Shown piece after piece: positions 18,147 through 23,075 of a stretch of DNA of 64,000 nucleotides. The position numbers and the translations under genes are program-made. Origin of the DNA: Chitinophaga sp. MM2321 (GTDB lineage Bacteria > Bacteroidota > Bacteroidia > Chitinophagales > Chitinophagaceae). Below the pieces are notes generated by a model. The model was not told the DNA's origin. It worked only from the letters and a program-made list of their open reading frames with translations, and searched no databases. Location of the stretch: contig NZ_OZ035533.1 of NCBI RefSeq assembly GCF_964033635.1, forward strand, positions 124,001 to 188,000, written 5' to 3'. Every line of letters begins with the position of its first letter. Within the stretch, counting starts at the first letter, position 1.

Positions 18147-20576
18147 TTATCTTCTTATTTCCGCTTGTAACTGCGTTTCAAATGTTTTAACCAATTTGTC
18201 CATTACCCCGTCAATCTCCTTGTCAGTAAGTGTTTTCTGTGTATCCAGAAAGGTAAAGCTCACTGCATAGGATTTTTTGTTCGCCCCCAGTTTCTCGCTC
18301 TCAAACACATCGAAAAGATTTATTTCCTGCAACAGCTGCGACTTTACGGTCCGTGCAGCTGCTTCCACAGCAGCAAATTTAACCTCCTTGTCAAGTACCA
18401 GTGCCAGATCGCGGCGAACGGCAGGGAAGCGGGATATTTCCTTGTAAAAGTTATCACTTTTTTGCAAGAGTCCCAGTATTTTATCCCAATTAAAAGTGGC
18501 ATACCATACCGGCTGCCGGATATCGAACTGTTTCAGTTTCTGTGTAGTTACGCCGCCAAGGGTGACCACTACCTGGTTTTTTACCTTGATTTCCCAGGCT
18601 GGTTGCAGCCCCGGATCGGTACTTTCCACCCATTGCAGGTTGCTATAGCCCAGCTGGCGCAGGATATTGCTGACAAAACCTTTCAGGAAATAGAAATCTA
18701 CCGGGCTGGCTTTGTGCATCCAGGTTTCAGCTGTTTTTTTACCGGTGAGATACAGTACCAAGTGATTGGTTTCACCGTAGCCTTTCTCTTTTACCCGGTA
18801 TGTTTTACCAAATTCAAAGAAGAACAGGTCTTCATTTTTACGGTTCAGGTTATAGGAAATACTCTCCAAACCGGTTTCCAGCATGGAAGGACGCATAATA
18901 TCCAGTTCCACGGTGAGACTGTTCATCATTTTCACGGTATGCTCCAGTACTTCGGGCGTAAAGTATTTGCTGTTGGTAATGGAGTTGGTGAAGATCTCAT
19001 TAAAACCGTTGCCTGCCAGGTAATCGCTGATTTTCTCCTTTACTTTTTCTCCGTCCGGCTGAGCGGAAATAGCGGGAGAGATCGTTACCCGGGACGGGAT
19101 TTCTATATTGTCCAGGCCATCTATACGCATCACTTCCTCTACGAGATCGGCAGGCAGACTGATATCCGGCTTGCTATACGGCACGGATACACGGAGTCCT
19201 TCCGCTGTTTCAGAGAGGATATTGAAGCCGAGGCTGCGCAGAATATTTTTGATTTTTTCAGCAGGATAGTTACTGCCACTGAGTTTACGTATATAGGCAT
19301 ACGTAGTGGTGACCTCCGTTTTGTGTTTTACTACGGGATAAATATCAATGATCTCCGAAGCTGCTTTACCGCCGGCCAGCTCACAGATGAGGGAGGCAGC
19401 GCGTTGCAGTGCAAATACAACATTGGAAATATCCACTCCTTTTTCAAAGCGGGAAGCGGCGTCTGTACGCAGTCCATGACGGAAAGAAGTGGTACGGATA
19501 CCACCGGCGCTGAAAAAGGCGCTTTCCAGGAAAATATTTTGTGTGGTATCGGTTACACCGGAATGGATGCCGCCAAATACACCGGCAATACACATGCCTT
19601 CGCCGGCGCCGTTGCAGATCATGAGGTCTGTTTCGTCCAGCTTTCTTTCTTTCTCATCCAGTGTTATAAAAGGAGTACCCTGCGGGAGATTTTTTACTAC
19701 TACTGCATTCCCTTTTACCGCCGCTGCATCAAAAGCATGCAGGGGCTGACCTGTTTCGTGCAGGATGAAGTTGGTAATATCCACGATGTTATTAATAGGA
19801 CGAACACCGATGGCTTCAAGATGTGTTTTTAGCCATTCCGGCGAAGGGGCTACCTGTACACCGGTGATGCTGATTCCGCTGTACCGCGGGCAGGCATCTG
19901 TATTTTCGATAGTAACGCTGATGGCTAAAGGAGTAGCTGCAACGGGCAGCGCCTTTATTTCCGGCAGTATTACCTGGTATTTATGGGTATGTTCTATATT
20001 ATTAAGGAAAGCGCAAACATCTTTCGCCACGCCGACATGACTCATAGCGTCCATGCGATTGGGGGTAAGACCAATTTCGAAGATATGGTCCTGGGCAGGC
20101 CGGAATACTTCGCTGGCAGGGGTACCTGGTTGTAAAGCCGCGTCCAGCACCATAATGCCGTCGTGACTATTGCCCAGCCCGATTTCATCTTCAGCGCAAA
20201 TCATGCCCTGGCTTTCTTCCCCACGGATCTTTGCTTTTTTCATGGTCAGCGGCTCGCCGCCAATGGGATAGATAGTGACGCCGATAGGGGCTACCACTAC
20301 TTTTTGTCCAACGGCCACATTGGGCGCGCCACATACAATATGGAGGGGCGCTCCGTTGCCGGTATTAACTGTTGTGAGCCTCAGCTTATCTGCGTTGGGG
20401 TGTTGTTCTGCGGTCAGTACTTCACCTATCACCAATCCTGCCAGACTACCCTTCACCGCTTCAAATTTTTCGAGGCTTTCCACTTCCAGGCCTATACGTG
20501 TTAAAATAGTGGATAGTTCCTCCGGTGTAGGCTTTACTGGTAAATAATCACAAAGCCAGTTGTATGAAATCGTCAT
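18147..20576 (-). CDS. pheT: Phenylalanyl-tRNA synthetase beta subunit
   Basis: This 809-residue protein is the large subunit of the alpha2-beta2 enzyme that charges tRNA-Phe. The start MTISYNWLCDYL is the family N-terminus. Domains in order are the EMAP/tRNA-binding fold (about 40-150, with HIVCGAPNVAVGQKVVVAPIG), B3/B4 editing domain (RYSGISITGVQVAPSPEWL), B5 (about 400-475, with GSNYPAEKIKNILRSLGF), the catalytic-like core and the C-terminal FDX-ACB anticodon-binding domain (SRFPAVRRDLALVLDKEV near residue 715). The alpha subunit pheS is not in the window. It leads the leftward operon with the coiled-coil gene and zapA. Confidence 0.98.
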   Translation of the reverse strand: MTISYNWLCDYLPVKPTPEELSTILTRIGLEVESLEKFEAVKGSLAGLVIGEVLTAEQHPNADKLRLTTVNTGNGAPLHIVCGAPNVAVGQKVVVAPIGVTIYPIGGEPLTMKKAKIRGEESQGMICAEDEIGLGNSHDGIMVLDAALQPGTPASEVFRPAQDHIFEIGLTPNRMDAMSHVGVAKDVCAFLNNIEHTHKYQVILPEIKALPVAATPLAISVTIENTDACPRYSGISITGVQVAPSPEWLKTHLEAIGVRPINNIVDITNFILHETGQPLHAFDAAAVKGNAVVVKNLPQGTPFITLDEKERKLDETDLMICNGAGEGMCIAGVFGGIHSGVTDTTQNIFLESAFFSAGGIRTTSFRHGLRTDAASRFEKGVDISNVVFALQRAASLICELAGGKAASEIIDIYPVVKHKTEVTTTYAYIRKLSGSNYPAEKIKNILRSLGFNILSETAEGLRVSVPYSKPDISLPADLVEEVMRIDGLDNIEIPSRVTISPAISAQPDGEKVKEKISDYLAGNGFNEIFTNSITNSKYFTPEVLEHTVKMMNSLTVELDIMRPSMLETGLESISYNLNRKNEDLFFFEFGKTYRVKEKGYGETNHLVLYLTGKKTAETWMHKASPVDFYFLKGFVSNILRQLGYSNLQWVESTDPGLQPAWEIKVKNQVVVTLGGVTTQKLKQFDIRQPVWYATFNWDKILGLLQKSDNFYKEISRFPAVRRDLALVLDKEVKFAAVEAAARTVKSQLLQEINLFDVFESEKLGANKKSYAVSFTFLDTQKTLTDKEIDGVMDKLVKTFETQLQAEIRR

Positions 20577-20596
20577 TTGTCAGCTCAATTTATAAA

Positions 20597-20627
20597 GAAG
20601 CGTAAAGTTAAGAAAGTTTCACGCAAA
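20597..20627 (-). promoter_or_regulatory. Possible promoter of the pheT operon
   Basis: On the minus strand a TTTG (20627-20624), 19 bases, then TACGCTTC (20604-20597), a partial match to TAnnTTTG. It sits 20 bases before the pheT ATG. A second TTTG lies 9 bases further upstream. The -7 box is weak, so this is tentative. Confidence 0.4.
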
Positions 20628-20742
20628 GCCGCAAAGAAGGCAACGGTACAACGATTAATATCTGATAAATAAATGTTTATCTGCATTTATAAGTAGTATT
20701 TCCGGATCAGGATACCAGGAGCAGAATGGCTTTTCGCTAAGA

Positions 20743-21060
20743 TGGTCCGGAGGACCGCACATCGGTAAGCCGGGGTTTTAACCCCGGTTATGGCGGTAAA
20801 TCCGGTTAATCTCCGTGGAGGTCTTCATGCGGAATTATCACCGGTTTATCTCCGTGGATATCTCTACGGAGATTATTGTGGATATCCTCGTTGGATCATC
20901 CCGGTTTCTCTCCGCGGAAACCATCGTGGGATGATCCCGGAAACCGTCGCCTCGTTTTATACGGTGACCATTACGGGTTAACGCATTTTTTTGCCGGGAT
21001 TTAAACGCCGGTTTACCGATGTGCGGTTCTCCGGATCAATAGTATCGGAGTGCGTTTTTT
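20743..21060 (+). other. Multi-hairpin structured element, possible noncoding RNA
   Basis: Arms 20743-20780 and 21001-21038 form a long outer stem; four of its differences from perfect pairing become G-U pairs if the plus strand is transcribed. Inside are nested hairpins: 20770-20787 (CCGGGGTT/AACCCCGG), CTCC-GT-GGAG at 20811-20820, 20848-20872 (ATCTCCGT/ACGGAGAT), 20893-20937 (GGATCATCCC/GGGATGATCC enclosing GGTTTC/GAAACC) and ACCGT/ACGGT at 20943-20965. A unit beginning CCGGTT, with CTCCG(T/C)GGA a few bases later, recurs at 20802, 20841 and 20901. A short stem CTCCG/CGGAG (21029-21050) followed by T6 (21055-21060) could be a terminator. No protein-coding case: the only ORF here mirrors the DNA repeats. 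Function unknown. Confidence 0.6.
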
Positions 21061-21182
21061 GCTATGATTAACAGGGACTTACAGGAGCGGCTATACGTAA
21101 TTGAGCAATGTTTGAAGGTTTTTGATGAAGAGCAGGTGATTTTTTACTTCCTGACTGGATGCTTTTACGGCCTTAAATTTTT

Positions 21183-21360
21183 TTTTGCACAATGTGTGTG
21201 AATAATCTGACCTTTGCATAGGAATTTTTTCTTGTTTCGGTGGATAACCATAGTAGCGTCAGTGGATAACTGACATTTTGCTGGTGGATAATCTGTGCGT
21301 GAAGCTTAATAAATTTAATGGTCAAATAAAAGGCGTTAATTAAAAAAATGCCTTTACCTT
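21183..21360. other. DnaA-box cluster with AT-rich flank: candidate oriC or DnaA-controlled dnaB region
   Basis: Two sites match the consensus TTWTNCACA exactly: TTTTGCACA at 21183-21191 (plus) and TTATTCACA at 21197-21205 (minus). Three further minus-strand sites, TTATCCACC, TTATCCACT and TTATCCACC, start at 21239, 21261 and 21283, exactly 22 bp apart, each 8 of 9 to TTATCCACA. About 60 bases of very AT-rich DNA follow (21300-21355). The gap lies between leftward pheT and rightward dnaB and is the largest gene-free stretch here. Whether it is the chromosomal origin cannot be decided from 64 kb; dnaA is not in the window. The rest of the gap to 21509 shows no other clear feature. Confidence 0.55.
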
Positions 21361-21509
21361 AGTTTGTACGGCTCGAAAAAGTTTACAATTTCTTAAAGCA
21401 GGAATCGTTGTAGAATGCGGAAATAAATGCATGCAAATAATTGTAAAAATATCTGGAAAGGCCATTGACAGTAACCTTTTATTAACATTTTTTAATACAC
21501 TAACCATAA

Positions 21510-23075
21510 ATGGATCTCAATCTTAAGAAAGACCGCAATGTGCGTAGAAAACCGTCCATTGAAGTGTCATCCTTGGTGTATGGCAAGATACCACCACAGG
21601 CTAAAGAATTGGAAGAAGCTGTTTTGGGAGCCGTAATGCTGGAGAAAGGTGCTTTTGATATTGTAATTGAAATATTGAAAGGCGAATGTTTTTATGTAGA
21701 AGCACACCAGCTGATATTTTCCGCCATGACAAGACTGGCGGCCAAATCAATGCCGGTAGACATTCTCACCGTTACAGAAGAACTCAAATCAATGGGTTCC
21801 CTGGAAGCAATAGGTGGTCCGTTTACGGTCATGAAACTTACCAATGCGGTTGTGTCTTCTGCAAATATAGAAGCACACGCGCGTATCATCCTGCAAAAAT
21901 TCATTCAGCGTGAACTGATCAGGATTTCCGGTGAAATCCTGACGGAGTCGTATGAAGATACCGCCGATGTATTTGACCTGCTCGACAGCGCAGAGTCAAA
22001 ACTGTTTGAGATCACGAATAATCACTTACGGAAAAACTATGATTCTATTGACCGCGTCCTGGTAAATACCATGAAGCGGATCGAAGATCTGCGTAATAAA
22101 GGAGATGATATTACAGGGGTGCCTTCGGGCTTCCCGTCGCTGGATGCGGTTACCTATGGCTGGCAATCAACGGATCTGATCATCATTGCGGCACGTCCGT
22201 CTGTGGGTAAGACCGCTTTTGCCCTGAACCTGGCGCGTAATGCGGCGCTGCATCCCCGCTTCCCGAAAGGCGCGGCAATCTTCTCTTTGGAAATGTCCTC
22301 CGGTCAGATTGTACAACGTATCCTCTCGGCCGAATCGGAGATAAAACTGGAAAAGATTTCGCGTGGTAAACTGGAAGAGTATGAAATGAAGAAGCTGATG
22401 ACCCATGGTATTGAACGCCTGGCCAAAGCTCCTATCTTCATTGATGATACACCGGCGCTCAACATCTTTGAACTACGCGCCAAATGCCGCAGGCTCGTAC
22501 ACAACCACGGCGTAGGCGTGATCATCATTGACTACCTGCAGCTGATGAGTGGTAGCAGCGATGGACGCGGTACTAACCGTGAACAGGAGATCAGTAAGAT
22601 CTCCCGCGATCTGAAAGGGCTCGCAAAGGAATTGCAGGTACCGGTTATCGCCCTGTCGCAGTTGAGCCGTGATGTGGAAAAACGTAAAGACGGTAACAAG
22701 ATGCCGCAGTTGAGTGATCTCCGTGAATCCGGCGCGATTGAGCAGGATGCGGACATGGTAATGTTCCTTTATCGTCCTGAATACTACGAAATCAATACCA
22801 ATGAAATGGGTGAATCCAACAAAGGAGAAACCCACGTTCGTATAGCCAAGCACCGTAACGGTCAGCTGGACACTATCAAACTCAGGGCTGTATTGGAATT
22901 CCAACGCTTTGAAGATGATGGCAGCCTTGAAAACCCCGGTGGTGGCAGTCCCTTCGCAGGTATCCGTCAGCAGCATAGCGGCGGCGGTAATGATGAGGCG
23001 AAACTGTATATACAGAAAGGGTCCAAGATGAATGATATGAACTTCGATGAAGGCTTTGAAGATGCACCATTTTAG
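21510..23075 (+). CDS. dnaB: Replicative DNA helicase DnaB
   Basis: DnaB is the hexameric helicase that unwinds DNA at the replication fork. The 521-residue protein has the N-terminal primase-interacting domain with PPQAKELEEAVLGAVML (residues 29-45), a linker, and the RecA-like ATPase domain with Walker A PSVGKT (residues 230-235, Lys234) and Walker B IIIDYLQLM near 340. The H4-like SQLSRDVEKR and DLRESGAIEQDADMV segments follow. No intein interrupts it. The C-terminal tail is acidic (NFDEGFEDAPF). A leader of up to 300 bases with a DnaA-box cluster precedes it, and an intrinsic terminator lies 27 bases after the stop. Confidence 0.98.
   Translation: MDLNLKKDRNVRRKPSIEVSSLVYGKIPPQAKELEEAVLGAVMLEKGAFDIVIEILKGECFYVEAHQLIFSAMTRLAAKSMPVDILTVTEELKSMGSLEAIGGPFTVMKLTNAVVSSANIEAHARIILQKFIQRELIRISGEILTESYEDTADVFDLLDSAESKLFEITNNHLRKNYDSIDRVLVNTMKRIEDLRNKGDDITGVPSGFPSLDAVTYGWQSTDLIIIAARPSVGKTAFALNLARNAALHPRFPKGAAIFSLEMSSGQIVQRILSAESEIKLEKISRGKLEEYEMKKLMTHGIERLAKAPIFIDDTPALNIFELRAKCRRLVHNHGVGVIIIDYLQLMSGSSDGRGTNREQEISKISRDLKGLAKELQVPVIALSQLSRDVEKRKDGNKMPQLSDLRESGAIEQDADMVMFLYRPEYYEINTNEMGESNKGETHVRIAKHRNGQLDTIKLRAVLEFQRFEDDGSLENPGGGSPFAGIRQQHSGGGNDEAKLYIQKGSKMNDMNFDEGFEDAPF

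Follow-up and report, generated by a model that had tools for sequence, protein, structure and literature searches.

A cluster of five DnaA box-like sites lies in front of dnaB in the chromosome of Chitinophaga sp. MM2321. The original prediction took it for the chromosomal origin or else for a dnaB promoter under the control of DnaA, and the question raised by the locus is which of these readings, if either, holds. We have analysed it in the window, the stretch of 64,000 nucleotides at positions 124001–188000 of the single contig of this genome (G000:C1; 6,778,472 bp). As the window starts at 124001, the array of boxes is at about 145.2 kb of the contig. The contig begins at dnaA; the 700 bp before this gene hold one DnaA-box-like site only. 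The DnaA protein of the genome has a recognisable DNA-binding domain IV, aligning with solved DnaA structures, and the closest named relatives of dnaB are from Chitinophaga.

Box sites in the pheT–dnaB gap

All five sites were confirmed at their predicted coordinates and strands, and the 22-bp spacing predicted for three minus-strand boxes, which we refer to as array boxes 1–3, is exact (Table 1). These three are without the final A of the strict consensus TTWTNCACA. The prediction had overlooked that the minus-strand box at 21197 belongs to the series: it precedes the box at 21239 by 42 bp and shares the register. The four minus-strand boxes (21197, 21239, 21261 and 21283) thus start 42, 22 and 22 bp after one another, distances that are all near whole helical turns, and lie on one face of the helix. 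The place of the single plus-strand box is retained as TTTTTNCACA in the genus alignment. Two further points of the prediction were borne out: in a crude ORF scan the pheT–dnaB gap, at 930 bp, is the largest of the window, and the AT-rich stretch contains 76.8% A+T against 54.2% in the window as a whole. This composition is compatible with an unwinding element but fits a promoter region too. The pheT gene is a neighbour and lies outside the proposed switch.

Table 1 Features of the pheT–dnaB region (positions in the window)
Feature	Position	Strand	Basis or remark
pheT, phenylalanine--tRNA ligase beta subunit	18147..20576	-	ORF; TIGR00472 above cut-off
Gap between divergent pheT and dnaB	20577..21509		ORFs, NCBIfam, gap scan
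DnaA box TTTTGCACA	21183..21191	+	sole one of the five in + orientation
DnaA box TTATTCACA	21197..21205	-	158 bp before core element
Conserved GACCTTTGC, which may be a second or an alternative -7-like element	21209..21217	+	upstream of array; genus alignment
Array box 1, TTATCCACC	21239..21247	-	116 bp before core element
Array box 2, TTATCCACT	21261..21269	-	94 bp before core element
Array box 3, TTATCCACC	21283..21291	-	72 bp before core element
AT-rich stretch	21300..21355		between array and core promoter element
Conserved TTACCTTAG, proposed dnaB core promoter (-7-like) element	21354..21362	+	genus alignment; promoter function inferred
dnaB, replicative DNA helicase	21510..23075	+	ORF; TIGR00665, 525 bits vs cut-off 385

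The motif TTATCCAC occurs 7 times in the window where 2.41 are expected, a number reached in none of 100 shuffles; TTWTNCACA is mildly over-represented (12 against 6.39 expected, with 12 reached in 5 of 100 shuffles). Across all 6,778,472 bp, two copies of TTATCCAC separated by 11–15 nucleotides were found twice, both times at the array, with none in the backward control; outside this locus, the 6.78-Mb genome has no such tandem pair at the spacing of the array. The looser search for tandem GTGNATAA pairs gave 10 matches at 7 places, the array included, against 3 in the backward control; in the loci that were viewed, the pairs at the other six places do not precede any evident replication gene. 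Among relatives, an 18-bp pair (L104) and a 21-bp pair (L102) are not at dnaB. The array region has no match in the plasmid collection.

Other repeats were seen along the way. On the pheT side of the gap (20760–21010), forms of CTCCGTGGA and CCGGTTTAT make up a run of palindromes and imperfect repeats. Box-like sites GTGGATAA, GTGAATAG and GTGAATAA are found at genome positions 320,659–320,699 (L363:1500–1540) at the end of a fucosidase-like gene, preceding ORFs that resemble a response regulator and RelA/SpoT, and a tandem 11-bp repeat, GTGTATAAAGC, follows an RNase III-like ORF at 6,582,700–6,582,750 (L368:1490–1550); all these genes were named by eye.

Conservation in Chitinophaga

The 22-bp register is kept in all 36 Chitinophaga genomes (our own and G001–G035), in 5 of the 36 with one-mismatch boxes only. 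An exact GTGGATAA pair is present in the dnaB locus of our genome and of 20 relatives. For the other 15 genomes dnaB itself was fetched and the locus then inspected: ten show two exact GTGNATAA copies at a distance of 22 bp, five keep the register through boxes with one mismatch, and TTACCTT follows downstream of the boxes in all 15. At one of the five (L381) both boxes of the 22-bp pair carry a mismatch. Named genus loci fetched by dnaB have the exact pair at 22 bp in seven of eight cases. In a set of 28 genus sequences 27 pairs are spaced by 21–22 bp, a count on which we do not lean because the set was partly selected by motif (four duplicates were dropped). The array upstream of dnaB is therefore kept in relatives, where its absence would have counted against the prediction. 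In G035 (L385, L389) the dnaB match is split into residues 2–36 and 26–521, suggestive of a frameshift or misreading at the start.

Conservation in the family and beyond

Across 195 family genomes the exact GTGGATAA pair has a match in only 7, being too strict outside the genus. Our unselected set consists of 72 non-genus Chitinophagaceae loci fetched by dnaB. Here the dnaB strand carries 48 copies of TGTGNATAA, spread over 34 of the 72 loci, and the other strand two, against an expectation of 1.5; GTGNATAA occurs 75 times forward, in 52 loci, and four times in reverse, and its exact form is absent from the remaining 20. After thinning to 61 dissimilar loci (11 dropped), TGTGNATAA is found 39 times forward and once in reverse upstream of dnaB, as against 7 forward and 6 reverse in the rest of the same loci (363,913 bases). 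With one mismatch allowed, these 61 loci have 164 sites in 59 loci on the dnaB strand and 28 sites in 26 loci on the other.

The boxes are equally frequent with and without an adjacent pheT (37 of 51 and 15 of 21 loci, respectively, some contigs being short), which supports the view that they follow dnaB. The latter loci comprise 12 of 17 without an upstream pheT match and 3 of 4 in which the distance to pheT exceeds 1 kb, again with some short contigs.

The orientation bias was not seen further out. Among the best loci of each search (at most 30), 22 loci from other Chitinophagales had GTGNATAA equally often in either orientation (7 forward, 7 reverse). Of 24 loci that came from the search of the phylum, two of them also Chitinophagales, one had it forward and six had it in reverse; six of the seven family loci that appeared in these searches, under the same limit of the best 30, have it forward. 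Within this sampling, the array is a trait of the Chitinophagaceae.

Phase of the boxes with the proposed core promoter element

The distances between boxes in the thinned family set cluster near 11, 21, 32, 42, 55 and 64 bp. Their best period is 10.60 bp (R = 0.544), matched by none of 2000 random placements. The distances from box to core element (129 in 50 loci) give R = 0.400 at the same period of 10.60 bp, matched by none of 2000 rigid shifts. Common distances to the core element are 61, 72, 94, 116, 157 and 183 bp in the genus, where the peak at 156–158 matches the box at 21197..21205, and 27, 50, 62, 74, 95, 116 and 157 bp in the family.

The core element itself has the family pattern TA[TCA][ACT]TT[CA]G[CT]. 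It is present on the dnaB strand in 57 of the 72 family loci and on the other strand in 1 of 72, a count that is descriptive because the element was picked from enriched k-mers of those loci. It resembles the TAnnTTTG -7 box described for sigma A of Flavobacterium psychrophilum (PMC9723704). Many dnaB promoters of the family have ATATTCGCCGTCCTG as their core element, and the similar ATATTCGTCATCCTG stands in the leader of dnaA (end of L036, start of L004).

Thus, boxes of the DnaA consensus are conserved upstream of one gene, dnaB, keep their phase to the putative core element and follow dnaB. On these grounds, we consider it likely that the sites serve the dnaB promoter as a control region responsive to DnaA.

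Alternative readings

The repeats could instead be hairpins of an RNA leader, with GGATA in the loops, or sites for a regulator other than DnaA. Array box 2 is framed by an inverted repeat, GTCAG-TGGATAA-CTGAC (21257–21273), a flanking stem of at least 6 pairs surrounds a box in 16 of 28 genus sequences, and in two loci (L087 and L197) the flanks have changed yet still pair. If GACCTTTGC rather than TTACCTTAG were the real promoter, the boxes would lie inside the transcript. In the family, however, the stems are mostly of 1–3 pairs, and Rfam gave nothing in the window at gathering scores and nothing at E up to 1 in 21000–21560; the leader hairpins, which the genus repeat had suggested, were rejected on these two counts. 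The pattern of substitution also argues against both a leader and another regulator. The DnaA consensus is TTATNCACA, with N at position 5. Where family loci have TGTGGATAA on the dnaB strand with a single base changed, this same position is the most often substituted (29), followed by positions 1 (13), 8 (12), 7 (9) and 9 (8), with the fewest changes at positions 2, 3, 4 and 6 (4, 1, 3 and 2, respectively). The changes at positions 8 and 9 are not predicted by the DnaA consensus. Taken together, we regard a leader or a different regulator as quite unlikely.

The datA and DARS sites of E. coli hold DnaA boxes away from oriC, and the array might likewise be a site of titration or reactivation that tunes the timing of initiation, not the expression of dnaB, and stands before this gene by chance. 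Several clustered boxes distant from the origin as placed by the skew (see below) would suit such a site. Phase with the core element and a link to dnaB in loci without an adjacent pheT are unexpected of a free-standing site, and we find this reading very improbable.

Probable location of the chromosomal origin

Clustered boxes with AT-rich DNA next to them, in the window's largest gap and beside a replication gene, speak for oriC, as does a step up in the skew across the site (see below). We sampled the GC skew in 80 stretches and the window, about 15% of the genome. All sampled stretches with a start between 2.78 and 6.06 Mb are negative and all those from 6.08 Mb via zero to 2.38 Mb positive, with mixed values at 2.55–2.72 Mb; the two arcs between the changes are of nearly equal length (about 3.4 and 3.3 Mb). 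At 1-kb resolution, the kilobase starting at 6,079,001 is the last negative one before the change; that starting at 6,080,001 has a skew of +0.100, and single kilobases vary beyond it. The skew at fourfold sites is too noisy to place the origin by itself. The minus-to-plus switch near 6.08 Mb is about 0.84 Mb from the array (0.145 Mb), so that the skew minimum is far from the locus, one of the observations that the original prediction named as speaking against it. At the array the skew steps up but keeps its sign, being weakly positive before (+0.003 to +0.030) and more strongly so after (+0.054 to +0.082).

The switch coincides with another conserved box cluster. At 6,080,216–6,080,463 (L084:10216–10463), in the gap between nadA and ppiD, the latter a gene for a PpiD/SurA-like isomerase that scores under the NCBIfam cut-offs, six boxes match TTWTNCACA exactly, three of them per orientation; mnmG is 4.5 kb from the cluster. 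The gap has matches in all 40 genus genomes, essentially full-length at 73% identity or more in 16 of the 40 (our own included) and over parts, mainly the ends, in the remaining 24. The skew round nadA was sampled in eight other closed genomes, with four stretches each. Four of the eight (G001, G171, G080 and G177) show a clear switch, both left stretches being minus and both right stretches plus; G035 and G025 show it in the inner stretches only, G062 at near-zero values, and in G143 the change is reversed. We infer that the nadA–ppiD gap is the likely oriC, about 0.70 Mb from dnaA, which is well supported in our own genome and less so in some relatives.

Round dnaB, by contrast, no minus-to-plus change was found in any of the seven other closed family genomes sampled there (G025, G001, G143, G062, G171, G080 and G177). 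Because the switch is missing at dnaB in our genome and in all seven relatives, and with the boxes phased to a promoter element, the proposal that DnaA loads on the array and melts the adjoining AT-rich stretch as oriC is one to which we give hardly any credence. The distant skew minimum and the conserved array point together to the DnaA-controlled dnaB promoter, so that of the two readings first offered the origin lacks support and the promoter is supported, by the phase of box and core element and by the boxes staying with dnaB. A more general caution follows: oriC should not be named from nothing more than a box cluster in a large gap next to a replication gene. As a by-product, the conserved cluster at the skew switch between nadA and ppiD is a concrete origin candidate for Chitinophaga.

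Proposed control of dnaB by DnaA

In the DnaA-responsive promoter that we propose, DnaA would bind the in-register boxes along one face of the helix and, once bound, act on RNA polymerase at TTACCTTAG. Transcription of dnaB would then track the amount or the ATP state of DnaA, and the supply of helicase would follow the capacity for initiation. As to the sign of the control, we lean slightly towards activation over repression because the core element has the Chitinophaga boxes upstream, at distances of 72, 94 and 116 bp. Repression may apply, chiefly in the few lineages with a box about 27 bp before the element. More tentatively, a one-faced DnaA filament of whole-turn steps might serve in the Chitinophagaceae as a phase-dependent activator that couples helicase production to initiator activity. 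Were this so, initiator and helicase would form a feed-forward loop, and box number and distance would drift only by increments of roughly one turn. In E. coli, initiation is inhibited by excess DnaB (PMC4828956), so that tying dnaB to DnaA makes sense.

Comparison with known systems

The locus resembles a bacterial oriC in its clustered DnaA boxes and AT-rich stretch in a large gap, but differs in that the array is off the skew switch, has its main boxes in one orientation and is phased to a promoter element. Like datA and DARS, which are named among the DnaA-bound regions of E. coli (PMC11317965), the array has boxes away from oriC; unlike them, it is tied to the promoter of one gene.

As a transcription factor acting at promoters with groups of boxes, DnaA has precedents in the E. 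coli regulon (PMC11317965) and in B. subtilis targets such as sda (PMC4447404). E. coli DnaA is reported to prefer boxes only 2–3 bp apart (PMC11317965), whereas the array advances in 22-bp steps in one orientation. The accessible parts of these two sources name target genes other than dnaB, which is not among the E. coli targets given there (PMC11317965). In the open-licence literature we found no report of a phased dnaB array or of DnaA as a transcription factor in Bacteroidota, and a tempting origin call has here given way to a clear candidate for the latter.

The closest parallel is dnaB of Caulobacter crescentus, which is reported to belong to the DnaA regulon, to be under DnaA control and to have DnaA boxes upstream (Hottes et al. 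2005, via the review PMC8203912). Caulobacter is of another phylum, and its boxes are given as predicted only, with no one-faced phased array mentioned in the part of the review that was available (PMC8203912). Since the principle of a DnaA-controlled dnaB has been reported for Caulobacter (PMC8203912), DnaA control of dnaB is itself already known, and the phased array is the new part.
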